From contig NC_092572.1 of assembly GCF_037975245.1 (NCBI RefSeq), positions 3,883,501 through 3,947,500 on the forward strand: a DNA stretch of 64,000 nucleotides, in the 5' to 3' direction. Positions 3,017-60,770 of the stretch are shown one piece after another (within the stretch, counting starts at the first letter, position 1; each line of letters opens with the position of its first letter). Made by a program: the position numbers and the translations under genes. The stretch comes from Apostichopus japonicus. Lineage: Eukaryota > Echinodermata > Holothuroidea > Aspidochirotida > Stichopodidae. The notes beneath the pieces are model-generated. The model was not told the DNA's origin and ran no database searches. It worked only from the letters and a program-made list of their open reading frames with translations.

Positions 3017-3127
3017 GAAATGAAGTCCGCTCCCCTCTAGGCAGTCTTGATTTCTTGAGAAATGTTTCTGATATTCTTGGAGATAAATTCTCTGCAAAAT
3101 CAATCCAAGAACTCGCAGAACCAAATA
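3017..3127 (+). CDS. ACOX3: ACOX3-like exon (first visible)
   Basis: Acceptor ttatttcttgcag ends at 3016 and donor GTAAGG starts at 3128. The exon enters with two bases of a split codon and leaves with one. It reads NEVRSPLGSLDFLRN, then ILGDKF and ELAEPN, matching the ACOX3 segment before the RWLV helix. Confidence 0.85.
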
Positions 3128-6100
3128 GTAAGGGTGGAGAAATATTTTCTTTAACTTTAACCGGTGCTATTCCCAGAAATAGGAGTTTTAACTTATAGTA
3201 TTTACAGAAACTGTTTATGTCTTTTAGATAAGATGTTGCGCTTATATCTTTTCAAATCTTGAAGATTAAACTTCTTTGATTTTTCAGTCTCTAAAATGAA
3301 TTAATCATTTACAGGATTTCACTTCCTTTTAAAATTCACCGCAGTTGCTGTCGTTATTGAACACAATTATTTTTCTTTCTTTTTCCTTTCATCCAATTTT
3401 TATTGGATTCGTTTTACAAATAGCATCAGTCATAGAAAGAAAAAAAAATCGACTGTGTTATAATCCTTTCATACAACCATCACAATTCAGGGGCGGTAGA
3501 AAGAGTTTGTGTGTGTGGGGGGGGGGGGGGGCACAACATCATAGGGGCACTTTATCATTCCACAACCACCACTCGTTATGCTATAAAGCGATACGCACCG
3601 GCCATATTACTTAAATATATATGATGAGTTAGTATGCTATCAATACTATTATGGTGCACGTGAATAATTAAAATAAAATATTAAAATTAACAAAGGCTTA
3701 AGATATCCAAAAGACAGTTCTTCATCAAAGGGGCACATTTTATTTGCTAGTAGGTCACATTTGCTATTTTGGAAAAAAGTGGGGGAACGTGCCCCCCTCC
3801 CAGCTCCTACCCCCCCCCCCCCCGGCCCGGTCACAAGTTCTTTCAGGTTCGGCCAGTAGACAATCGTTTCACTTCATTCTTTTCATATCATATTTGTTTC
3901 ATCCTCTAAACCTCTCTGATTACTCTCATACTTTCCACAGCCATATTACGAGCCTACAGATGGCTGGTAGTGTATCTAATGGAACAGAGTGGGGACAAAT
4001 TCAGCAGAGAGTTGGAAGCGACTAAAAATGGGTTCACCGCAAACAACAATTCGCAAGTTTACAACTGTCGCTCGATGTCTATTGCATACATTGAGGTATA
4101 AAATTCAAAATAAAAGGATTAAGTCTCTTTCCCGAATTATTAACCCCCCACCCCCCCCCCCCCCGCATCGACAATGATTATGACCTCATATAGGAGGAGT
4201 AAATTTAAAGAAACATGAGCTGAAACTGTCATACAAAAAGTAGTATTTGTAAATTACCATTTTATGACGGAAAATCCCCAGTTTTGATGATGTCTCTTTT
4301 TTCTTTAGCTTACGACTTTAGAGTTAGACTGGTTCTATCAGCTGATTAATGGTCCAGATGTGTTATCGGAGCTACGCAATGTTCTACTAAAATTGTTCTT
4401 TATTTAGCTTACAGCTTTAGACTGGTTCTATCAGCTGATAAATGGTCCAGATAAGTTACCTGAGCTACGCAGTGTTCTACTAAAACTGTTCTACATTTAG
4501 TTTACAGCTTTAGAGTGGTTCTATCAGCTGATTAATAGTCCAGATAAGTTACCGGAGCTACGCAATGTACTACTAAAACTGTTCTTTATTTAGCTTACAG
4601 CTTTAGACTGGTTCTATCAGCTGACTAATGGTCCAGATGTGTTACCAGAGCTACGCAATATTCTACTAAAACTGTTCTTTATTTAGCTTACAGCTTTAGA
4701 CTGGTTCTATCAGCTGATTAATGGTCCAGATAAGTTACTTGAGCTAGGCAGTGTTCTACTAAGACTGTTCTTTATTTAGCTTACAGCTTTAGACTGGCTC
4801 TATCAGCTGATTAATGGTCCAGATAAGTTACCTGAGCTACGCAATGTTCTACTAAAACTGTTCTTTATTTAGCTTACAGCTTTAGACTGGTTCTATCAGC
4901 TTATCAATGGTCCAGATGTGTTACCTGAGCTACGCAATGTTCTACTAAAATTGTTCTCTTTGTACGGGGTATGGAGTCTGGAAAAACATACATCGACGCT
5001 AGTGAAGGGTAATTCAATCTTTTCTTAGTGACATTAATTTTTTTTTTTTCATAATTATGTAAAATTGAATTTTTATCAAAGTTCAAATTGATTTCCTTGT
5101 CCGTTTCGTTTCGAGTTATCTCTGTGACTAATTAGTAATTAGTACCAGTCATGAGTTTTATACGTCTTCATCGTGATTTGAAATAAAAGTTAAAATTTGT
5201 TTGAATTTGAATTTGTTATGATCGAATAAGTTCAAAATATTTATTCTTCTTTTCCAAAATGTATTATTCTGAATACCCACACCTTCTAAGTATGTGTGAC
5301 TCTTCATCTTTCTGAATCTCGCTGGTATCGTGACGACACAGTATCATGTATATTTAATACAACATGTGTTATCGATTTATTGATCCTATCTGAATGTATC
5401 AATCATTGATTTCTTTCAGGTGGCTACATCGTCGGGTCCGAGCCAATCCAATTAATAGAGGACGCTATTTTACATCTCTGCTCAAACTTGAAAGACGAAG
5501 CTGTCACTCTTGTAGATGCTATAGCGCCGACAGATTTTATTTTAAATTCTCCAATTGGACATTCAGATGGACAAGTAAGATCATATTTCTTTTTCCCAGT
5601 TAGTTTGTTAATTAGTTTATTAACATTAGTTATTATTGTTTATTGTCGTTTGCATGATTGAGCTTTAGGATATAATTTGTTAATAATACTAAAAAATAAA
5701 AATTAGTTCAATAAAAAGTTTCTGAAGGTTTAGAATTTAATTTTCCTTTTTTTTTGTACATTCCATACCGGGAGAAAACAGATGTGTGGATGATATCCCA
5801 CTCAAAGATAGCATATGAAACATTAATTTATTTTTAATATTATTGCTAATGTAGTACATTTGGATGGAATTCGTTCAATATTAGTCGGTTATCACCGTGA
5901 ATAATAGGCGTTCTTTGAGTCTGTTACATATTCTGATGGTTTGCATTACTGACTTGGAAAAAAAAAGAGAATTCTGAATGTTGTGTTTAAAATTCAAATC
6001 AATGTGTTTCTTATAAATATATTTATTTATTAATTTGCTGATTTATTACTTAGCTTATTTATTTTTCTTCTTTACAGGTTTACAAACGATTATACAACTC

Positions 6101-6185
6101 AATGCTACAAACACCGAATGTTTTCTCGAGAACAGAAAACTGGGAAACTTTTGTCAACTCCGCCAATCCTCAATCTAAACTGTAA
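3017..6185 (+). CDS. ACOX3: Peroxisomal acyl-CoA oxidase, ACOX3-like (C-terminal five exons, 5' partial)
   Basis: Flavin-dependent acyl-CoA oxidases of this type oxidise branched-chain or long-chain acyl-CoA to the 2-enoyl-CoA in peroxisomes and reduce O2 to H2O2. Five exons join in a consistent frame: 3017-3127, 3941-4095, 4873-5008, 5420-5574 and 6078-6185. They give about 220 residues covering the C-terminal helical domains. Family marks are SPLGSLDFL in exon 1, LRAYRWLVVYL and SQVYNCRSMSIAYIE in exon 2, LYGVWSLEKH in exon 3, AVTLVDAIAPTDF and NSPIGHSDG in exon 4, and a C-terminal SKL peroxisomal targeting signal. The pattern AIAP-DF-L-SPIG-DG followed by a W-rich tail fits ACOX3 better than ACOX1. 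The N-terminal half lies outside the window. The third exon is preceded by six extra copies of its own acceptor and first part. A candidate polyadenylation signal AATAAA lies at 6414-6419. Confidence 0.9.
3487..3830. mobile_element. Degenerate non-autonomous inverted-repeat element, related to the one at 8845-9468
   Basis: It begins with caggggcggtag, then a G run and ggcacaacatca. It ends with aaaagtgggggaacgtgc and a long C run. The same order of motifs (gggggcac, gacatcaaagggcac, aaaagtggggg, acgtgccccc) appears in the better preserved element at 8845-9468, so I read it as a decayed copy in the ACOX3-like intron. No clean target duplication is visible; tcacaatt on the left and tcacaagt on the right are only similar. 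Confidence 0.45.
3941..4095 (+). CDS. ACOX3: ACOX3-like exon (second visible)
   Basis: Acceptor ctttccacag ends at 3940 and donor GTATAA starts at 4096. With the split codon from the previous exon it encodes 52 residues including LRAYRWLVVYL and SQVYNCRSMSIAYIE, the conserved helices of the oxidase C-terminal domain. It ends in phase 0. Confidence 0.85.
4307..4963 (+). repeat. Seven tandem copies of a 3' splice site plus exon start (93-bp unit)
   Basis: The ag of each unit's acceptor falls at 4307, 4406, 4499, 4592, 4685, 4778 and 4871. The first interval is 99 bp and the others are exactly 93. Each unit carries ag|cttacagctttagactgg and encodes the exon start LTALDWFYQLINGPD in the same phase, then ctactaaaactgttc and ttatttag. 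In copies 1-6 the coding part runs straight into an in-frame TAG that is itself the next copy's acceptor AG. Only copy 7 continues into the rest of the exon (LFSLYGVWSLEKH) and a donor at 5009. Copies 1, 4 and 7 share gatgtgtta where copies 2, 3, 5 and 6 have gataagtta. Confidence 0.95.
4873..5008 (+). CDS. ACOX3: ACOX3-like exon (third visible), using the seventh tandem acceptor
   Basis: Only the seventh acceptor (AG at 4871-4872) gives an exon that reaches the donor at 5009 (ggGTAATT) without a stop. It encodes 45 residues plus one base: LTALDWFYQLINGPD, then LRNVLLKLFSLYGVWSLEKH. Use of any upstream acceptor would include an in-frame TAG. Exon definition would favour this shortest choice, but that is inference. 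Confidence 0.82.
5420..5574 (+). CDS. ACOX3: ACOX3-like exon (fourth visible)
   Basis: Acceptor ttctttcag ends at 5419 and donor GTAAGA starts at 5575. The split glycine codon continues as GGYIVGSEPIQLIEDA, then DEAVTLVDAIAPTDF and NSPIGHSDGQ. These are among the most conserved ACOX C-terminal blocks. Confidence 0.9.
6078..6185 (+). CDS. ACOX3: ACOX3-like terminal exon with PTS1
   Basis: Acceptor cttctttacag ends at 6077; stop TAA is 6183-6185. It reads VYKRLYNSMLQTPNVF and ends NPQSKL, a canonical peroxisomal targeting signal type 1. Confidence 0.9.
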   Translation, partial: VYKRLYNSMLQTPNVFSRTENWETFVNSANPQSKL

Positions 6186-6413
6186 TTCTGTGTACAGAAC
6201 GAATGACCTATGACCTATATGTCCAATGTCATAACAAATTGATCATTGGTGGAATTAGTCTCACGTGACTTTAATCTTAATACAGGACAAACGATTGCAA
6301 GAATAACTTTAACCGTCAGTCCAGCTTTTTCATACCTATCACTATTTTATAAATTTGCGAGAAAATAATGTTTTAAACATAAAAGATTCTTCTGTAAAAT
6401 TATATATCAAGGA

Positions 6414-19800: not shown

Positions 19801-22800
19801 TTGCATTTTTGATCCAAAATCTTAGCTTTTAGGGTAAATATCACTTTGTCTTAGTTTTACCTGATGTTTCATTTCCATTTTCATATAAATGTAATTTGTG
19901 TTAATTTGCCAAACTGATGTTACCTCTAAAATGATCAGTTACCTTTAAGGTGATCAGTTACCTTTTGAAGTACTGTTCATATTGTTTACCATACTGTACA
20001 TGGTGTAAATACAATATACATTGCTTAAAACTGATTCTTGATTCATTTTTTTCATTTTTTATCAAAAAATCAGAAAATTGAGATCAAAGGTCACCTACAC
20101 ACATATCTTCAGGTGTTTGTAAAACAGACAATTGGGATCAAAGGTCACCTACACACATAACCTCAGGTCATTGTAAAGCATCATATGACATGTAGGCTGA
20201 ATCCCTTCACCATTAGTGCCTTGGGCTGACACTTTGCAGTTCTAAAGAAAAGTGCTGGTGATGACTTCATTGGAAATCAAGATATTCATGTCATTTTTTT
20301 TTTTTTTTACGATTAATTTATCTCTCTATGAATAAATTATTGAGGATTTCCTCCCAGGTTTCCAAGTTGGTACTATTTGCTTTTCCTAATTTATCTTTCA
20401 TTTGCTTCAATAGAGAATCCTGGAAGCAAGTAACGGACCTTTACACATCGACGAAATCAGGAAAAGGATTTTAGACCTCGACATTCTGAGGAGTAACACC
20501 AGATCGAGTCTGGAGTCTGTCTTGAGCAAAGACCTTCATCGAGGCAGTAAGAGATTCAGGAAGGTCAAAGGTCAAGTTTACAGACTCGTGGTAAGGGCTG
20601 AATGTTGTTACGATAACATCGGGGAGGGTTAACTACGTTCAGCCATCTTAACTGCTTTGTATTCTTGAAGTGGCGTTTGAAAATTAAAAGCTTTTTACCC
20701 AATCAGCTGTAGGATTATGTTAAAGATCTTTGTAATAGGGTATCCAAAGCAAAACCTTATTCCATATAGGAGTTATTGAGTCTTTAAGTTGGGTAGACTA
20801 CATGTCATAAAGGTGCTTAGAGGTTAAACACATTTCTTTTTCAGAATTCATAGTTTATAAGGTCAACGTAAATGCAGTTTGCAGTTGATAAGCTAAACGT
20901 AAAATGCAGTATGAGGTTTATAAGGTCAACGTACAGAATCATTCAAAGATAGAGCTTCACTTATAACTAAAACCAAGAAAAGTAAACGTTTGATCGTTTC
21001 CATAGCAACCTATATATCTTTTCTTCTTGTAGCAACCTATATATCTTTTCTTCCTGATTTGTACATTATTTTATTTCTCGTTAGACTCCTGAAGAACTCA
21101 CAGCTCAAGTCAAGCGACAAATAGCGATGACTTCCACAAATGCCAGAAATTCATCTCAGTCTTTAGTACAGGAACAGCGATCTCGGAAGCAGAAGCACAA
21201 ACGAAATTACCTCTACATGAGAAGAGTCGCCAAACAGCTGGTCTTTGTAAGTATTCGTTTATAAGATGCAGATGCTGTCAGAATCTGTGCATCCCCCTCC
21301 CCCTGCCCCCTGCCCCAAGCAGAGACATAAACAAAATTACCTCTACATGAGAAGAGTTGCCAAACAGCTGGTCTTTGTAAGTATTCCTTCATAAGATGCA
21401 GATGCTGTCAGGATCCAAGCATCCCCCCTTCCCTGCCACCAAAATTTTTCTCGATTGGTTTTAATATAAAATGTTCTTCGCACGGCCAATAACTGCATTG
21501 GTTTCTGTGTAGTTTGCCACTGATACACACTGACTGACAGTGACCATCGCAGACTTAATGAATCAAACTGAGAGCATTTGTGGTCACATGTTGATATCAG
21601 GCGATGGACATGTAAGCTAAGGATGACACATATGAGTACTTGCAGGACCATTACACTGAGACCTTGGGCATGGCACTGAGTGTCAATGGCCTCTCTTCAC
21701 CCAGGTATATAAATGCAAACAAGACTGTGGCTTCACCCAGGGTGTTTGGACCAGGGGACCAGTAGATTTGACATACTGTTATGGCCCAAGAGCAACAGTG
21801 AAAATTATTCAGATGAACAGGCAAATAGAATATTTATTTCATTCGTATCATCTATATAAGTTGCATATTAGTTGTTTTCCAGCACAACAGTGAACACAGT
21901 TTTCTGTAGTACTTGTGCTTATAAGCCTTTATTATTATGATTATATTAGCTGTAACTTGCTATAGCATAAAATTATATATTAATATATATTTGATGGTTT
22001 ATCTTTTCATGAAAATTTACTTTAATTGTATTTAGGGAAGTTCTTTCTGAAAATAGAGAGTCCACATTTTTTTACATTTTTTTTATTCATTCTCCCAATC
22101 CAGGAAAATGGTGCCCTCGCAGACACGCTGGCCCAGTCGGAGAAGAAGTTATCTCGCGCCAAGACAGAGAGGCGGTTCCTTTTGAACCGTCTGCTCAGCT
22201 ACATGGCGATGATGAAAGACATGTCCCTGCTGGAGGTCAAGAAGACCAGGAAACCTGAGAGGGAGGTGGAACGGAGGCAGGAGAAGGACTCCAAGAAGAG
22301 GAAGGAGAGGAACAAACATAGACATAAGAGGAACAAGAAAGTCAAAGGTCAGAAAATAAAAATTCAGTCTCAACAAAAATTACCTCTTGGAATTGTTATT
22401 TCTATACCTTGTGTGTGGCTTTTACAGGTTTCATATTTAAGTTAACAGCCAAACAATTTTAAGATTGTTTTTTTCCTTAATAGTACAATTCCTTTAGTGT
22501 TTGGTAATAGACGAAAGCTTAAGCCGTGATTATTTGTGGTGGCAAAATGAAAAAAAGTAAAATGTAAAACTCTTGAATGAGCTAAAATAAAGAATAAACG
22601 GCATACATTGTTTCCTCCTGATGTTTTACTGTCAATATTTTCAAAGGGAACATAAATAATGAGCCCACAATTGCTGACATGCTGATTTAAAACTTAACAA
22701 CATGTCATGTCTTTAAAAGAACTTTTTGTTGCAAACATTGCTATCATGTCACCAGTTGAAGGAACCAATCTTTGAATCAATTTCACTTCCATTAAATTGC

Positions 22801-25800: not shown

Positions 25801-27245
25801 GCCACAAATGGTGCAAACTGAGGCATATTTAGGGTATAAATTAGCATATAATTTGTATTAATATTTTAATTTTTTTTGTGTTTGGTGAAAAGCTGGGGTA
25901 GAGCCAAGCCTGCTGCAATAGTATTATTTTAATCCGTTTCATGATTCCACAATATCTCTCTCATCCATTGAGGATCACGATTTTGAAAAATATTAATTTA
26001 CCTTAATAAGATGAAGATTTTGGAAAATTAGAATTTGTTAAAAGAAACAAAATAAGTTAAATAGATGTAATTTTTGTTATAATTTGTCTTAATCAAAGCT
26101 GATTGGCAACAATGACTAACTAATAAATCATTAATAATTATAAATCTATTCTGCAGTGGGAAGCGAATGGTGGACGACACTCGAGGCTCCGGTGCAGAAT
26201 TCTTCGGCATCTCCAATCCAACCATCTGTAACCTGATCCAAAATCTAGCAAACGCTGAGAAATGCCCCGGATACAAGATGATGCAGTTTGAAACCTGTCC
26301 GGAGAAAGATAGAAAAAAACTGAGGCTCTGGTGTGCGGAGGATCCAAGAATTGATTACGACGCCCTGCAGAGATCCCAAGAAGGTATTATAGGGAAATGA
26401 AACTGTGGAAGTGTATTTTGTGGGTTGTGTTTAGTTGACATGAAATGTTTCTAAGCGAGAAACTGGTGGGAAGGTATCTTGCTGATAGAAATGGAGAAGC
26501 AAAGATGATATTCTACGGATTTGATGGTCGGCCCATTATTAAAGGCTGACGTACTGGGATATCGAGACTTGGGTCTGACCAACAGGACAAGTTTATCACA
26601 GGGCCCCGTTTGTAGTCATCAGAAATTCATGGTACATCCTTGGGCCCATGAAAAAGTTTTCTTATAATGAGAATACATTGTACCCCCATCTGGCCCCCTA
26701 TAGGACCCAGGCTGTTGGGCTGGACCTCATGTAGCCCCCAATTCTCTTCAGGCCCTCCCCCTCATATGTCAACAACAGCTATAGTTATGTATAAGTAGAC
26801 ACAGCAACAGGCTAAATATCAGCAGTCCTATTATATTATGTGGGGTCTTCTACCAGTTGTAACTTTAAATATAGGCTTGGATTGAAAATTGTTGGCAATA
26901 GAACAAAACAATTGCAAATGTTGTTTAAGATGGCTCTTTCAAAAATGACCAATGAGTATAATCATTTCTGCCAAACAACTGAAAGAATATTTCATATTTA
27001 GTAATTATTTTATGGAATTTGTGTTTTTTTAACCATCATTTGCAGGATATACCAAGAGGATAGACCTGGGTGGCTCCAGTAGTCGACTAACGATGACAGA
27101 CAGTGAGAGATTAAGATTCATTTTGAACAGAACCAGCACGTCACACTTACAATCAAGTACAGTAGCATCTAGTGTTAGCTCTGTTGATGACCTTTCAACT
27201 CAGGATGGTGATGCTGATACCACAGATCATATTGATGTCACATGA
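13494..27245 (+). CDS. TBRG1: TBRG1-like protein with HARE-HTH-like domain and FYRN/FYRC domains, complete coding region in 11 exons
   Basis: FYRN/FYRC proteins are chromatin-associated; vertebrate TBRG1 is a nuclear growth regulator. The coding exons 13494-13808, 14289-14437, 16387-16462, 20414-20590, 21085-21246, 22104-22347, 23012-23113, 23741-23943, 25055-25152, 26157-26383 and 27046-27245 join into 651 codons including the stop. Residues 1-155 are rich in Pro, Ser and Thr. Residues about 165-239 (GVGWLDAAQ, then RILEASNGPLHIDEIRKRIL, ending FRKVKGQVYRLV) look like a HARE-HTH winged helix. Residues 294-327 are a coiled coil (LAQSEKKLSRAKTERRFLL) followed by a very basic Lys/Arg/Glu stretch to about 374. 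FYRN is at about 409-476 (EPIFPIVLSNLRVHNLG, IYTLGFSSERLYAHY) and FYRC at about 477-560 (GSGAEFFGISNPTICNLIQ). The start is the first ATG after an in-frame TAA at 13479. The body matches TBRG1; the N-terminal winged helix is the unusual part. Confidence 0.88.
14289..14437 (+). CDS. TBRG1: TBRG1-like coding exon 2
   Basis: Acceptor tttctgcag ends at 14288 and donor GTAAGA starts at 14438. It encodes more proline-rich sequence (MVPMESPSPTPLSPGFMY) and ends with two bases of a split codon. Confidence 0.8.
14753..15498. mobile_element. hAT-type non-autonomous transposon, 730 bp, with 8-bp target duplication
   Basis: The element 14761-15490 begins tagggatgcacccgatatcc and ends ggatccggtgcatcccta. 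It is flanked by exact 8-bp copies of ttcatttt (14753-14760 and 15491-15498), the hAT signature. Many ccggccgga motifs cluster inside each end, as subterminal transposase-binding repeats do in hAT elements. The middle is non-coding. It lies in TBRG1-like intron 2. Confidence 0.93.
16387..16462 (+). CDS. TBRG1: TBRG1-like coding exon 3
   Basis: The acceptor is a tandem NAGNAG (tcagcag), so the exon can start at 16387 or 16390 and gain or lose one residue in frame. It encodes SVGVSQRKVPEV and then GVGWLDAAQ, the first helix of the HARE-HTH-like domain. Donor GTGAGG starts at 16463. Confidence 0.8.
16463..20413. other. TBRG1-like intron 3
   Basis: A 3.95-kb intron. It contains TA and polyG tracts, a short-unit repeat field at 19315-19650 and paired copies of gatcaaaggtcacctacac at about 20083 and 20138. 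No exon is recognised in it. Confidence 0.7.
19315..19650. repeat. Irregular repeat of agattctacagtagattcat type
   Basis: Diverged short units built from tacagtagatt, catactacagtgg and acagtagattta are reiterated about ten times without a fixed period. This is an old degenerate minisatellite inside TBRG1-like intron 3. Confidence 0.7.
20414..20590 (+). CDS. TBRG1: TBRG1-like coding exon 4 (HARE-HTH-like core)
   Basis: Encodes RILEASNGPLHIDEIRKRIL, then LESVLSKDLHRGSKRF and VKGQVYRLV. The run 'A-R-L--S-GPLH--EI--RIL' followed by a conserved L-KDL and F-KV-G-Y-L ending is the HARE-HTH pattern seen in ASXL-type proteins. Phase 0 at both ends; donor at 20591. Confidence 0.83.
21085..21246 (+). 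CDS. TBRG1: TBRG1-like coding exon 5
   Basis: Acceptor tttctcgttag ends at 21084 and donor GTAAGT starts at 21247; phase 0 at both ends. It encodes TPEELTAQVKRQIAMTS and RNYLYMRRVAKQLVF. Its last 60 bases with the donor are duplicated 130 bp downstream. A 24-base duplication also sits in the pyrimidine tract just before its acceptor (caacctatatatcttttctt at about 21007 and 21035). Confidence 0.85.
21187..21441 (+). repeat. Tandem duplication (130-bp offset) of exon 5 end, donor and C-rich intron
   Basis: Copy 1 runs from aagcag at 21187 and copy 2 from aagcag at 21317. Both contain the coding end, gtctttgtaagtatt and agatgcagatgctgtcag, and then a C-rich tract. The C-rich end of copy 1 followed by aagcag precedes the coding part of copy 2 and so resembles a new acceptor. 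Confidence 0.92.
21323..21376 (+). CDS. Candidate alternative 18-codon exon born by duplication
   Basis: If the CAG at 21320-21322 acts as acceptor, the exon is 54 nt, phase 0 at both ends, and encodes RHKQNYLYMRRVAKQLVF before donor GTAAGT at 21377. It would insert a near repeat of the end of exon 5. The polypyrimidine tract is C-rich rather than T-rich. Use is untested. Confidence 0.35.
22104..22347 (+). CDS. TBRG1: TBRG1-like coding exon 6 (coiled coil and basic region)
   Basis: Encodes the coiled coil ENGALADTLAQSEKK to RRFLLNRLL, matching the TBRG1 leucine-rich segment, followed by a Lys/Arg/Glu-rich run (EKDSKKRKERNKHRHKR), a likely nuclear localisation region. Donor ag|GTCAGA at 22348 is weak. 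Confidence 0.8.
23012..23113 (+). CDS. TBRG1: TBRG1-like coding exon 7
   Basis: Acceptor tttccttgtag ends at 23011 and donor GTAAGC starts at 23114. It encodes GNTNPVEMEPPRRKLQTL, the linker before FYRN. Phases match both neighbours. Confidence 0.8.
23741..23943 (+). CDS. TBRG1: TBRG1-like coding exon 8 (FYRN)
   Basis: Encodes the FYRN domain: EPIFPIVLSNLRVHNLG, RPRYHDKSHIYTLGFSSERL and MWYICKILDGGPTPV. Acceptor ttgtcctacag ends at 23740 and donor GTGAGT starts at 23944. Confidence 0.9.
25055..25152 (+). CDS. TBRG1: TBRG1-like coding exon 9 (start of FYRC)
   Basis: Encodes FQISGEGEEAQSF and CHQKLMEAVNRA. Acceptor ttcacctcacag ends at 25054 and donor GTGATG starts at 25153. Confidence 0.85.
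26157..26383 (+). CDS. TBRG1: TBRG1-like coding exon 10 (FYRC)
   Basis: Encodes SGKRMVDDTRGSGAEFFG, ISNPTICNLIQNLANAEK and YKMMQFETCPEKDRKKL. The GADFFG-like and NP-I--LIQ motifs are typical of FYRC. Donor GTATTA starts at 26384. Confidence 0.9.
27046..27245 (+). CDS. TBRG1: TBRG1-like terminal coding exon 11
   Basis: Acceptor catcatttgcag ends at 27045; stop TGA is 27243-27245. It reads GYTKRIDLGGSSSRLTM and ends in a Ser/Thr/Asp-rich tail (STQDGDADTTDHIDVT). Its last 118 bases are duplicated 176 bp downstream in the 3' UTR. Confidence 0.85.
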
Positions 27246-27465
27246 CCATAGTCAGCATGGTGGGGGAAGGGGAGGGGGTGAGAGAAGTATGGGGTGGGGT
27301 CGACAGAACCAGCACATCACATTTACAATCAAGTACAGTAGCATCTAGTGTTAGCTCTGTCGATGACCTTTCAACCCAGGATGGTGATGACGATACCACA
27401 GATCATATTGATGTCACATGACCATAGGCAGGATCGTGGGGGAGAGGGGGGGGTAGGGAGGGACA
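27128..27465 (+). repeat. Tandem duplication (176-bp offset) of the terminal exon end
   Basis: Copy 1 begins cagaaccagcacgtcacact at 27128 and copy 2 cagaaccagcacatcacatt at 27304. Both run through the stop codon and cataccata-like sequence into a G-rich tract. Copy 2 lies in the 3' UTR and is not translated by the main frame. Confidence 0.93.
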
Positions 27466-30536: not shown

Positions 30537-42256
<11,720 letters not shown>

Positions 42257-44521: not shown

Positions 44522-45553
44522 TCATCTTATATCCATTTCATCCAACTGTTTATGAAATTGATCTTTAACAAAACCGTAAAATTCATAGTCCAGTTTCATA
44601 TCTTCTTTCATTTTTTCTATAATATCTGGTCGTGGCCTCTCCTTCTCCTTGGTCTTTACCTTCGACACGAATTCCCTAGTCTCCGATTTCTGGTACATCT
44701 CGTATAAGCCCTTAAAATGTGCGGGATATTTTTTCTCTAAGAGTTGCAAAAATTTGTCAAATTCTTCTAAAATTCCGACGACGGAAAAAGTTTGGGACGC
44801 GATCCTCTTCGCTCGCTCGATTGTCTTGCGAGCCATCTGGCTACAAATGCTTGTGACGCCGCAGAAACGCGGGTGTATCGTTTTGCCAAGCCAGTGACCG
44901 AAGCAGGTATCGTTCCGAAGAGACTTTTGACAGTGGCTAAAGTAATCTCGTTCGTATTTTCCTTTCAGACCTGTGTCTGGTCCTTGGATGCCATCACCGC
45001 TCTTTTCAAAGTAGTACGCGGACAGGAATCTCTCCAGAGGGTCCCTTATCAGGCTGATATAGACAAGATCGCCGGAGTCTCTCAACGGTACGAACGACGT
45101 GTCCACGTAGAGGAACGCGGGCCGGGTGGCGTTGTCCACGTACTCCTGGACCATGGACGTCCTATCGCGACGTCTCTCCTTCACGAGTTTCGTGAGGGCC
45201 GAGACCTCACCCCAGCCGTTCTTCTCTTTGAGATTACTGACCAGGTAAAAGAGTGTTCTACTGCCACACTTTGGAATGATAAAATAAACAAAGGTGGTGT
45301 TTGGAACGACTCGCTCCACACTAGAAATATCTCTGTCGACCTTCGGCGTGACGACCAATGTCTCTTTAATGATGGGCTCTCTAGAGTCTTCGTTCGAAGA
45401 TCGCATCTCCGACGGAAATTTCCCTTGGATGGCTGCGTTTTTACCATCGGACCTGATCAAGCCAAAGATGATGCCGAGGAACATTAATGTCAGTAGGAAC
45501 AGAAGTAACCTCAATAACTTCCTGATGGGAAGATAAGTTGAGATGCAACCCAT
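44522..45553 (-). CDS. Uronyl 2-O-sulfotransferase-like protein, intact, intronless
   Basis: A 343-residue Golgi type II membrane protein of the 2-O-sulfotransferase family. These transfer sulfate from PAPS to the 2-position of uronic acid in glycosaminoglycans. Residues about 12-32 (RKLLRLLLFLLTLMFLGIIF) are the signal anchor and about 33-85 a stem. The 5'-phosphosulfate loop is PKCGSRT at 94-100, as in UST (KCGSRT). The 3'-phosphate motif is RDPLERFLSAYYF at about 170-182. VVGILEEFDKFLQLLEK and the C-terminal DYEFYGFVKDQFH also match UST. N-glycosylation sequons occur at NTT (85), NAT (141) and NDT. The whole frame is a single exon, unlike vertebrate UST, so it may be a retrocopy-derived or lineage-specific paralogue. 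The closest named family is UST; the exact substrate is unknown. Confidence 0.9.
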   Translation of the reverse strand: MGCISTYLPIRKLLRLLLFLLTLMFLGIIFGLIRSDGKNAAIQGKFPSEMRSSNEDSREPIIKETLVVTPKVDRDISSVERVVPNTTFVYFIIPKCGSRTLFYLVSNLKEKNGWGEVSALTKLVKERRRDRTSMVQEYVDNATRPAFLYVDTSFVPLRDSGDLVYISLIRDPLERFLSAYYFEKSGDGIQGPDTGLKGKYERDYFSHCQKSLRNDTCFGHWLGKTIHPRFCGVTSICSQMARKTIERAKRIASQTFSVVGILEEFDKFLQLLEKKYPAHFKGLYEMYQKSETREFVSKVKTKEKERPRPDIIEKMKEDMKLDYEFYGFVKDQFHKQLDEMDIR

Positions 45554-48050
45554 ATTTCAAACATGAATTGTCATTTAAACAGCTGTACATACTTTAACCC
45601 CAAAGTATGTTGTTTCTCGGTTGTTATTCACCAATTATCTTAATGTCATCAACACATGTGATCTTGATATAAAACTGCTGATTATAGCCAAACGTGATGG
45701 CATGATAAACTATTACACATATGTAACTTGAGAACGTTACAGCTGTTTCTTTTGCTTTAAATATCTGTACATATATCTTTCCTGTATTTTCAGGACTCTG
45801 CTTCAACAAAACTTCAAAATGGCTACAGTAAAAGTCGAACAGTTAATATTTGCCATAACACTGGTTTCATGAGAACTTGAAGAAAAGAAATTTTGTTTTT
45901 CAAATGTTCCTCATACATGCGTCTGAAGGGTTTTGCTGATCATAATATGGTTTCAGCTCAACTCAGCTAAGAGGATGTCTAACACATTGCAATCCCTTCC
46001 AAAGCCACTTTCTGATTATTTTACAGAAAAATTCACAATTGGGTTCTATTTAGAGACAGATCATATATTAGATATGAAAACAGGATTGTGCTCCTTTAAA
46101 ATACAGACTGAAACTCTGTCCTTGTTTGAATAATCGCAGGTTATCACCATGACAACTTGAGAACTGGATATTAAACACTGTAGATATTATTAGTTACCAC
46201 CATTGACATATAAAAGCTTGTGTGACAAAGCAATAGCTAACAGACCAGTTTGTGTTTGCTATTAAAGCCATATGAACAAGTCTGTTATATCATTAAATAC
46301 ACACTTCAGGGTAATGTTTCAGTGGTTAACTATGAAAAAGAAACGATGTCCGCCAGTGATGAGAACTATACATAATACAGAATGACACTGAGATGAAAAA
46401 AAGGAAACTTAAATTATGACCAAATAGAAAACCTCAAAGGATTCTCAACCTTTGCATCCAATCCACAGCCAAATTTCTAATACAATTCAGTTAACCAGTC
46501 TACTTGGTATGTACTGGAGTTTACAGACTTTATAAGTAATGCAGAGAGTGCATTGCCTGCAGGGAATTATTGTGCAAAAAGACCTTGACAACGAAGATGG
46601 GCAATGTTTCCTTTAAATAAATAACTGGAAAGGTGTGACAAAATGTTCATTTCAGGTTATCACCATGACAACTTGAGAATTCCATGTTAAACACTTTAGA
46701 TCATGTTATTAGGTACCATGATTGATAAATAATATCTTGAGTGACAACAGAGAGATATTACCACATTATTGGTTTGCTGATGCCATAGCAACGACTACCT
46801 GTCTCAGTTTAAAACGTACGAATACTGCAGACGATATTTTCTTCAGGGTAAGACTCTAAGCAATAACCCCTCGACAAGAAATAAGGGTAATGTTATAAAA
46901 CAGATAGAAATTGAATATCAAAACTATATATATATAGGTTCTTCAAGCTTAACTTTTATATGAAAGTAAATAGCACTAATGACAAGAACAAATTGTTTAA
47001 AGTATCTCTTCCAACCACCACTTTTAAATTTTAACATCAACAAAGATGGTTTAATTCCACCGGATGTGAAAAGACACTGGAAAGCAAATATTTTCTTCAG
47101 ATCAAAATTTTTCGATGGAATTCCAAATTACGACTGAGCAGGCGTTGTCGAACCGGATCCAGATATTCGCAGATGTTCAAAAATGATGTGAAACTTTTGA
47201 GACATGATTTCCTGTTTGTTTTTCAAGCTAAGTGTAATTTCTCCAGACATTCGAGCAACCGATCGGAAATGAAACAAGCATTTCCAAGTTTAATCCGAAG
47301 AATGCAGATTGAGAACTGTTCATAGAGGTGGCTAGTGATTCATTAAAGGAACTGGATCTTGACTAAGAAGCAAGAAGGCAGTGAAAAGTCACTATTTAAG
47401 TCACATAAAATAAACTTTGCCCAGGAAATCCTTAAAATGTTAACTCCAAAAGGACATGTATTTATTTCCGCAGTGACATCAGTACAAATGTATCCACAGG
47501 CCATGTAAGCAAGAACAGTCCACAAAAACCCGGAACAACTTTCAACGCTGATTGATTCCAAAATGTCAAAGGTCAGGAATTGTTATTTACATTTCCTGCT
47601 ATCCAACTACAACTTCATGTAAAACTTCATGTAAAGTCCAATATTCATAGCACTGTTATCCTTTTTGATAAAATACAGAATTTTAAACTGCTTCATAGAA
47701 TCTGTCTCAAGTGGTGGAAATTCCTCGTAAATATCAATCCAATCTTTCAATACATTGAAACGTTTTTTTTCTGTTTCTCGTCCCTTGCTTGTTGGTGGCT
47801 AATGATAACACTATATAAGCCACCATGAAATGCCAACGCATAGGACTGTTGAGATAACTACGTGTCATAAGAAGGACAATGAAGTTTCCATTGGTATAGT
47901 ATTGGCTAGTTTTGATTGTACCAACAGCTAGGGGCACTGGTCCATGACACTGCTATTGGGAATGGCAGGTCAACCATGACACACTAACAGAATTAGTACA
48001 ATGACTGTGTAAACTTCCTGTGTGCAGACTATACTGTGTAAGTTGCAATA
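45554..48050. other. Non-coding stretch upstream of the intact sulfotransferase
   Basis: No recognised gene. It contains two diverged copies of a local repeat, ggttatcaccatgacaactt with ttaaacactntagat, at about 46139 and 46656. The sulfotransferase promoter is presumably near 45560-45850 but shows no distinctive motif to me. Confidence 0.45.
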
Positions 48051-56535: not shown

Positions 56536-57676
56536 ATGTCATCCATCTTCCGATGAATCAGTTTTAAGATAATTCTCCTGGCTTTGACCGCCATCGCACT
56601 CTCCATCGGTTCAGGATTCTTAGCTTTCTCCATCTTCCACCTGTCTTCGAGCGATGCCATCGGCTCCCACGTGCGAATGGTAGGAACACATCGCCATGGC
56701 AACAGGGATCATGATCCCAGAGAGAACAAAGAAATGGTTCCTCGTCAAAACATTTCTGTCTTGGGAGAGGAAGTCCAGAACGGATCGCAATCAGAAGTGG
56801 CTGCTAACGTAGATTTGAAGATGAAGCCACGCCAACGCCCGCCTCTCCCCACAGCCCTGAGAGATCTGACCGTGATCTATTACATGGTCCCTAAATGTGG
56901 CAGTCGGACTTTCTTCTACCTCATTGGACAGCTGAAGAAGATAAATCCAAACTGGCAGGACGTTCTGGCTCTTACATCTGCTGAGAGTGATGTGAGAGTC
57001 GAACGGACCAAGGAAGTACCAAAGTTTGTCATGGAAGCAAAGAAACCGGCCTTTCTCTACGTGGACACGCACTTCGTCAATTTCAAACGTCCTGGTAACG
57101 TTATGTACATCAGTATCGTGAGAGACCCCATGGAGAGGTTTCTATCAGTTTTCATTTCATATCTCTGGTGATAATTTAACAGCGCCTAAAAACGATCGCG
57201 ACTGGGTCAAAACCAAGGAATCTGCTCAGGACCAATGTATTGAACAGAAGCGGCATATCTGCAGCGGACAGTGGCTCGGAAGGGCCATGCACTCCAGGTT
57301 CTGTGGGACTGGGATCGTCTGTTATCAAACGTGCCGCCAAAACTTTGAGCAGGGGAAACGTAATCTGCTAGAGAAGTACCATGTGGTTGGAATGCTGGAG
57401 GAATTTGAAGACTTTCTCTCAGTATTAGAAAGACTGGTACCTTCTTTGTTTGAAGGAATATTAGACTTGTACAAGCATCCCTCCACAAGAGAGTTTATGG
57501 CCAGAGTGAAAACAGCTGAGAAAGTCAAACCGAGCGAAGAGACGAGACAAAAACTGAGGGGTTTTTTGCAGAGGGATTTTGAATTTTATCAGGCGGTGAA
57601 ATCCAAATTTTATAAGTTAAAAGAGAAACTTGGACTTTCATCAAACTCTGAAAATTTATCTCACAAAGTGTCTTGA
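56536..57676 (+). pseudogene. Uronyl 2-O-sulfotransferase-like pseudogene (nonsense codon and frameshift)
   Basis: Intronless paralogue of the gene at 44522-45553, inverted relative to it. A plausible start ATG at 56536 is followed six codons later by an in-frame TGA (56554-56556). After it comes a membrane anchor (IILLALTAIALSIGSGFLAF), then the PAPS loop VPKCGSRTFFYL and the 3'-phosphate motif RDPMERFLS. At about 57141-57165 the frame shifts: the first frame ends at TGA 57169-57171, while the family sequence continues in another frame (ISGDNLTAPKNDRDW, then RFCGTGIVCYQTC, VVGMLEEFEDFLSVLERL, DFEFYQAVKSKF) to the stop at 57674-57676. The two products differ at many positions, so this is an old paralogue. 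Sequencing error could explain one lesion but is less likely for both. A spliced start upstream is an alternative for the first lesion. Confidence 0.82.
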
Positions 57677-59419: not shown

Positions 59420-60770
59420 TACTTATCAGACTATATATACTATACTGTATATACTTTATATCTATTTATACTATGTATACACTATATATACACTATTTAT
59501 ACTATGAATACCCTATATACACTATTTATACTATGAATACCCTATATACACTATTTATACTATGAATACCCTATATACACTATTTATACTACATACACTA
59601 TATAATATACACTATTTATACTATGAATACCCTATATACACTATTTATACTATGTATACACTATATATACACTATTTATACTATGAATACCCTATATACA
59701 CTATTTATACTATGAATACACTATATAATATACACTATTTATACTATGAATACCCTATATACACTATTTATACTATGTATACACTATATATACACTATTT
59801 ATACTATGAATACCCTATATACACTATTTATACTATGAATACCCTATATACACTATTTATACTATGAATACCTTATATACACTATTTATACTATGTATAC
59901 ACTATATATACACTATTTATACTATGAATACCCTATATACACTATTTATACTATGTATACACTATATAATATACACTATTTATACTATGAATACCCTATA
60001 TAAACTATTTATACTATGAATACCCTATATACACTATTTATACTATGAATACCCTATATACACTATTTGTACTCTGAATACCCTATATACACTATTTATA
60101 CTATGAATACACTATATAATATACACTATTTATACTATGAATACCCTATATACACTATTTATACTATGAATACCCTATATACACTATTTATACTATGAAT
60201 ACCCTATATAAACTATTTATACTATGAATACCCTATATACACTATTTATACTATGAATACCCTATATACACTATTTATACTATGAACACCCTATATACAC
60301 TATTTATACTATGTATACATTATATACACTATTTATACTATGAATACCCTATATACACTATTTATACTATGAATACCCTATATAAACTATTTATACTATG
60401 AATACCCTATATACACTATTTATACTATGAATACCCTATATACACTATTTATACTATGAATACCCTATATACACTATTTATACTATGAATACCCTATATA
60501 CACTATTTATACTATGAATACCCTATATAAACTATTTATACTATGAATACCCTATATACACTATTTATACTATGAATACCCTATATACACTATTTATACT
60601 ATGAATACCCTATATACACTATTTATACTATGAATACCCTATACACACTATTTATACTATGAATACACTACATACACTATTTATACTATGAATACCCTAT
60701 ATATACTATTTATACTATGAATACCCTATATAATATACACTATTTACTATTACTATATAAATATACCATA
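59420..60770. repeat. 29-bp AT-rich minisatellite, about 45 copies
   Basis: Unit cctatatacactatttatac followed by tatgaatac, interspersed with variants (tatgtatacactatatatac; actatataatatac). It is nearly devoid of G and C and rich in TA steps. It gives rise to spurious Tyr/Ile/Leu-rich frames. Confidence 0.97.

Follow-up and report, generated by a model that had tools for sequence, protein, structure and literature searches.

A minisatellite across a 3′ splice site of an ACOX3-like gene in the sea cucumber Apostichopus japonicus, with the intact oxidase probably made from the last of seven acceptors

Which of several near-identical acceptors yields an intact enzyme when a tandem array lies across an intron-exon boundary? 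An ACOX3-like gene of the sea cucumber Apostichopus japonicus raises this question at the left end of the 64,000-nt stretch of DNA analyzed here (contig NC_092572.1; hereafter the window), where seven AG acceptors (positions 4308, 4407, 4500, 4593, 4686, 4779, and 4872) each precede a copy of the same exon start. A preliminary description, made from the letters alone, had reported seven tandem acceptors before one exon, and both the sequence and TRF placed them exactly as it had claimed.

The gene appears, from its domain content and C-terminus, to encode an ACOX3-like peroxisomal acyl-CoA oxidase. Specifically, joined translation of the forward-strand exons at 3017–3127, 3941–4095 (upstream of the array, with its donor at 4096, in phase 0), 4873–5008, 5420–5574, and 6078–6186 (the last coding exon, in which a PTS1-like SKL is followed by TAA) gave 220 amino acids ending in NPQSKL*. 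The C-terminal ACOX domain of Pfam (PF01756) was matched at 9.5e-48, from an exon join with one residue wrong, and proteins named ACOX3 from echinoderms were among the best protein hits, upholding the earlier assignment. An orthologue alignment was built from 17 of the 41 protein hits, the 17th being a truncated A. japonicus model (P0024) considered below; the C-terminus was kept in all 16 of the other proteins, and the seventh copy of the array aligned with the ACOX3 orthologues.

TRF delimited the array at 4324–4957 (93 bp × 6.8 copies, 91% matches). Each 93-bp unit comprises an intron end, the AG, and 84 coding bases, and the AG is kept in all seven units. The first unit is 99 bp long, having a 6-bp insertion, and the junction preceding copy 3 reads tacatttag, two corrections to the earlier picture of 93-bp junctions carrying ttatttag. 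With acceptors spaced at 93 bp, and once at 99, the arrangement is distinct from NAGNAG tandem acceptors, which are spaced by a few nucleotides. The first junction is TTGTTCTTTATTTAG, with TTTTTTCTTTAG as the native intron end and TTGTTCTCTTTG as the native exon. Copies 2–6 are 90–95% identical to one another and 85–89% identical to copies 1 and 7, that is, the inner copies are homogenized and the edge copies divergent, as in a homogenizing minisatellite. A search of the 671.6-Mb assembly with window positions 4200–5100 returned a single match, the locus itself. The array is a minisatellite across a 3′ splice site, of the type that has been called a "mirage".

Reading frames set the last copy apart. 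Copies 1 (4309–4407, 99 bp, behind the native acceptor AG 4308), 2 (4408–4500, 93 bp, AG 4407), 3 (4501–4593, AG 4500), 4 (4594–4686, AG 4593), 5 (4687–4779, AG 4686), and 6 (4780–4872, AG 4779) lie on the forward strand and each end in a TAG, as established for copies 2, 3, 4, and 6 by frame reading and copy alignment. When the exon ending at 4095 was joined to copies 1–6, this TAG fell in frame exactly at the next acceptor in six of six cases, with stops 601, 508, 415, 322, 229, and 136 nt upstream of the exon end at 5008. Acceptor 7 alone, opening copy 7 plus the remainder of the real exon (4873–5008, forward strand, AG 4872, donor GTAATT; delimited by its intact frame and the orthologue alignment), gave a full frame with the C-terminus ...NPQSKL*. 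The preliminary description had anticipated the TAG at each next acceptor, the truncation from the first six, and an intact oxidase solely from the acceptor nearest the donor, and the translations agreed with it throughout.

Because the intron is in phase 0 and ends in TAG, and because the 93-bp unit is divisible by three (31 codons), an in-frame TAG at the inner acceptors is automatic, and we rejected the notion that it is a designed feature. The same point weighs on the idea of a regulated switch, in which the array would act as a poison-exon-like dimmer set by copy number or splicing factors. Every upstream choice does lead at once to a stop, and one upstream acceptor is used in an annotated isoform; yet the stops need no such explanation, similar arrays were found mostly at donors (below), and an array across this acceptor was present in none of five paralogous ACOX exons, inspected as stretches of about 500 bp. 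In a second ACOX3-like gene, on C15 (L082, C15:10690780-10691280), the corresponding exon has the same phase, a single acceptor in 501 bases, and GTGCTCATCAAG at the corresponding codons, and in the paralogous exons L083, L084, and L085 repeats end before the acceptor. We consider such a switch very unlikely. Even less credence, indeed next to none, attaches to a reading of the copies as seven alternative or mutually exclusive exons: the coding units are repeated, but no unit shows a donor of its own, GTRAG (the donor form scored) being absent from 4309–5008, and this candidate was rejected.

The seven acceptors are not equally equipped. Only about 9–12 nt of intron are copied per unit, and the branch-point-like and pyrimidine sequence is for this reason supplied by exon codons, so that the earlier claim of exon codons doubling as the signals of the next copy stands at the sequence level. 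Since neither the native branch point nor most of the pyrimidine tract was copied, acceptors 2–7 would depend on the exon bases that precede them. TACTAA occurs before all six of these acceptors, with the branch-type A 17 nt ahead of the intron end, in the form TACTAAA or, in one, TACTAAG; variants of the motif include gtactactaaaa in copy 3, attctactaaaa in copy 4, and gttctactaaga in copy 5. The proposal of a branch-point-like sequence at each junction was thus borne out for acceptors 2–7, where it is exon-derived and accompanied by pyrimidines, but the motif varies, and TACTAA was found before none of 18 native acceptors from three genes, leaving TACTAAA unsupported as a branch-point consensus of the species. 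TACTAA precedes 63 of 3590 forward-strand AGs (1.8%), and its presence before acceptors 2–7 is one inherited event rather than seven. In an acceptor PWM built from the same 18 native sites, which were themselves scored leave-one-out (range 2.4–16.8), acceptor 1 reached 9.3 and acceptors 2–7 fell between -1.9 and 2.0, all of them under the lowest native acceptor. As the strong acceptor 1 truncates the frame and acceptor 7 is weak, the intact form is not favored by strength alone.

One annotated model uses an inner acceptor. The NCBI model of ACOX3-like isoform X3 (P0024, representing a cluster of four sequences) is 628 aa long and ends ...AYIELTALDWFYQLINGPDKLLELGSVLLRLFFI; its final 30 residues match the translation of copy 5 exactly, up to the TAG, and that of no other copy. 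Copies 2, 4, 5, and 7 are identical over the first 29 nt after the junction, and short-overhang reads are therefore unassignable among them and could mislead. This identity lends some weight to the possibility that the array is silent and neutral, only the last acceptor being used, the upstream copies behaving as intron, and isoform X3 being an artefact of short-read placement. Amphioxus mirages, moreover, were reported without disturbance of regular splicing (PMC3087553, PMC3902484). Against silence, acceptor 1, far stronger by PWM, would have to be ignored, and the annotated model does use copy 5. A silent array, which would share with the reading we prefer (below) the production of intact oxidase from the last acceptor, is a serious possibility that we nevertheless hold to be somewhat doubtful.

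A more drastic alternative is that the truncated oxidase is now the main product and that the C-terminal exons are being lost. Neither the 41 protein hits nor the 12 hits for shorter fragments included an intact A. japonicus ACOX3, the truncated model being the sole A. japonicus ACOX3 model among them; many of the hits carried no name, and none of the unnamed was near full identity over the C-terminus. The strong acceptor 1 leads into a stop, and the second ACOX3-like gene on C15 could relax selection on the gene with the array. The frame is, however, open through copy 7 and the final two exons, which align with orthologues and retain SKL, and one protein fragment (P0067) is identical at 52 of 56 positions across the exon that follows the array. 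This fragment and another (P0069) start in intron-like sequence and are consequently uninformative on the array junction itself.

The substitution pattern also bears on this alternative. Relative to the array consensus, copy 7 carried three synonymous and no non-synonymous changes with V16 set aside, and copies 2–6 carried four synonymous and 11 non-synonymous changes, close to the 75% non-synonymous share expected without constraint. The two classes differed at Fisher P 0.043 (18 changes, V16 treated as ancestral); counting V16 of copies 4 and 7 as a change gave 3:2 versus 4:13 and Fisher P 0.27. V16 is present in copies 1, 4, and 7 and was treated as ancestral, given that a hydrophobic residue occupies that position in several orthologues; copy 1 was omitted from the count, its 6-bp insertion having misaligned it. 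The pattern is suggestive of copy 7 being the coding copy and of copies 2–6 having been released from selection. If V16 is ancestral, copy 7 has no derived amino-acid change, which again speaks against a truncated main product, and we regard that account as unlikely.

The reading that we consider probable is that the array constitutes a 3′ splice-site mirage in A. japonicus ACOX3, with the intact oxidase arising from the last acceptor. The minisatellite would have grown over the intron's 3′ end and the start of the exon, each duplication taking along the AG with some 84 coding bases but almost no intron, and acceptors 2–7 would lean on the exon-supplied TACTAAA (TACTAAG once) and a short pyrimidine stretch. 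Intact oxidase would most likely be obtained by splicing from 4095 to the weak last acceptor at 4872, presumably with the help of exon definition of the 136-nt exon. Upstream acceptors may be used part of the time, giving truncated frames without the PTS1 that would be probable targets of nonsense-mediated decay; our confidence is greater in the mirage and its last acceptor than in any extent of such use. The array requires no adaptive purpose; minisatellites are numerous in this genome, and some of them span junctions.

Comparable arrangements are known, of which amphioxus BflGb6 and the human CBS insertion are precedents for this reading. In amphioxus, repeats spanning exon-intron boundaries were termed mirages, and RT-PCR suggested regular splicing of the globin gene BflGb6, in which units of 150–160 bp (six and three in number) run from an intron's 3′ end into the 5′ part of the exon (PMC3087553); further lancelet mirages include PGBD5, Adh, and troponin C (PMC3902484). 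The amphioxus cases (Adh3, BflGb6, BflGb9, PGBD5, troponin C) resemble the sea cucumber array in that repeats span a boundary, splice signals are kept in many copies, and inner copies are homogenized, and BflGb6 has the same layout as the ACOX3 acceptor array. The sea cucumber differs in being an echinoderm host, in having an in-frame stop for each upstream choice together with an annotated truncated isoform, and in having donor arrays of up to 124 copies. The use of copy 5 in isoform X3 either argues against undisturbed splicing or is a mapping artefact.

Among human cases, the CBS allele c.844_845ins68 duplicates the intron 7/exon 8 junction, and the distal site is strongly favored, which keeps the mRNA normal (PMC2630376); that text says "splice donor", and the title of Romano 2002 that it cites says 3′ splice site. 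This allele likewise presents a duplicated junction with competing sites, as does ACOX3, where the intact frame comes from copy 7 alone; unlike the ACOX3 array, it is a human polymorphism with one extra copy rather than six. The 31-bp CBS VNTR, c.1444_1467+7(16_21), has a unit that by its name spans exon and the first seven intron bases, which we read as a repeated donor (PMC2630376); it differs in lying on the donor side, with 16–21 units of 31 bp. In primate segmental duplications, internal tandem repeats at boundaries can yield alternative splicing and novel introns (PMC2812944), and those, unlike ACOX3, concern recent gene duplicates in which repeat number varies among paralogues. Introns created by repeat expansion are described for Cryptococcus (PMC2395259).

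The preliminary description had missed that the acceptor array belongs to a known kind and is one of several such arrays, including one of 124 copies at a donor of the same gene. The latter has a period of 42 bp and extends over -3375 to 1832 in window coordinates, its right part occupying 1–1832 of the window on the forward strand (TRF, copy count); the donor position is GT in 116 copies and AT in eight, and the array opens with the exon end ...SYEGDNNVILQQTSRHLLLTARDVFQG (...LLLTARDVFQG). P0024 holds this stretch once, a single donor thus being used in the model and the rest passed over. A second ACOX3 donor array, of 45 bp × 46, lies at -9243 to -7174 (L003) after ...AKLGLNGFSNGF (...GLNGFSNGF, then GTACAT), with GT after 35 of 36 exact copies of AATGGGTTT, and its stretch is also present once in P0024. 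On the reverse strand, a gene identified as KAT7 (best hit chain 6maj_A, 1.8e-158) has two donor arrays. The first (37131–37753, 157 bp × 4) shows GACTTCA followed by GTAAG in all four copies; in its three intronic copies a 40-nt exon-like piece is preceded by CCTTCCACAG and followed by GTAAG, and judging by these signals the copies could act as frame-shifting pseudo-exons. The second (41339–42102, 109 bp × 7) has an identical core, GGATATG plus GTAGGTTAAAT (GTAGGT), in seven of seven copies. Finally, a forward-strand gene with FYRN, FYRC, and INO80E-like matches, which we take to be TBRG1-like, has a donor array at 21187–21427 (130 bp × 1.9; ...AKQLVF then GTAAGT in both copies) and a second array at 27127–27453 (176 bp × 1.9) over the likely stop codon and the start of the 3′ end.

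Elsewhere in the window, a 29-bp × 43 array (CTATTTATACTATGAATACCCTATATACA) at 59462–60732 has no recognized gene on it. An intronless sulfotransferase ORF on the reverse strand (44525–45556) is 99% identical to an A. japonicus putative uronyl 2-sulfotransferase; it is one of two Sulfotransfer_2 matches, the other being at 56557–57171 on the forward strand and followed by an ORF in another frame (57122–57676). Searches of the window with Rfam at the gathering threshold and with ARAGORN (bacterial code) gave no match.

Whether arrays are enriched at splice sites within the window is ambiguous and hinges on the null model. Five of 36 junctions lay inside arrays, involving five of the 19 arrays of a hand-merged TRF list; the 36 include one added KAT7 acceptor and exclude one mis-hit, and window position 17 stood in for the 42-bp donor. 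Random placement of one unit per array gave a mean of 0.91 (P 0.0013), whereas placement of whole arrays gave a mean of 3.2 (P 0.20). Removal of the acceptor array and the 42-bp array left 3 of 17 (P 0.043), and addition of 40 hypothetical junctions gave P 0.031. For the larger ACOX3-KAT7 region, six of about 46 junctions were spanned, a junction count that is approximate in that upstream ACOX3 exon ends were not individually checked; 0.48 would be expected at genome density (P 1e-5) and 1.55 at local density (P 0.005). This stretch looks like a hotspot. Sampling 10 kb at 5.0 Mb on each of C1–C11 and C13–C19 (18 stretches) gave 19 arrays with a period of at least 29, equivalent to 6.8 per 64 kb, and the same count in the window was 22.

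Beyond this region, the first 60 matches of 150–330 bp from a list of 134 kinase matches were sampled with 600 bp on each side, and donor-spanning arrays were present in three of the 60 exons; the single piece submitted to Pfam was confirmed as a kinase domain. Two (L030 and L031, on C11) are paralogues, presumably CDK11-like, that are 94% identical and have 70-bp donor arrays, and the third (L068, on C6), which we take to be PKG-like, has a 42-bp donor array that is absent from its paralogue L071. Arrays near kinase exons L029, L055, and L060 were inspected and spanned no junction, and the remaining arrays in the neighborhood of kinase matches end more than 60 bp from the match. About 1.2 arrays would be expected across 120 junctions (two assumed per match), given the array density of the 18 stretches, their unit lengths, and a period of at least 25. 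With three seen, two being paralogues and hence two independent, there is no clear genome-wide excess, and junction-spanning arrays occur genome-wide at about the rate to be expected of a minisatellite-rich genome.

Of the independent arrays, seven spanned donors and one, the 93-bp array, spanned an acceptor (one-sided binomial 0.035); the numbers are small, the comparison was unplanned, and the stop-codon array was excluded. The acceptor array is the rarer type. We infer that donors predominate because the spliceosome meets the right donor copy first, everything after it being intron, whereas the right copy of an acceptor array is the last; in such an array the right copy would have to function at once, with signals drawn from the exon.

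The ACOX3 array constitutes a further case of a mirage, in a phylum for which no report of splice-site minisatellites was found by title or abstract start in the part of the literature searched, and it extends the phenomenon to an echinoderm, the earlier descriptions that we found being from amphioxus and some human cases. The wider recurrence of such arrays is more interesting than the single array. Extrapolation from three of 60 kinase exons would put splice-site minisatellites of the sea cucumber in the hundreds or thousands, with donor arrays harmless even at 124 copies because the first copy is right, with acceptor arrays obliging the cell to bypass a stronger acceptor for the last, exon-derived one, and with the ACOX3 acceptor array therefore constantly yielding truncated ACOX3 and its output set by copy number; we offer this broader reading tentatively, and think it rather improbable as a whole. 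Gene models across splice-site arrays may be wrong. The donor-to-acceptor ratio of seven to one, although small and unplanned, makes a testable prediction as to which duplications survive, and natural arrays of two to 124 near-identical splice sites provide ready tests of how the spliceosome chooses between first and last sites, between proximal and distal sites, and between exon and intron definition.
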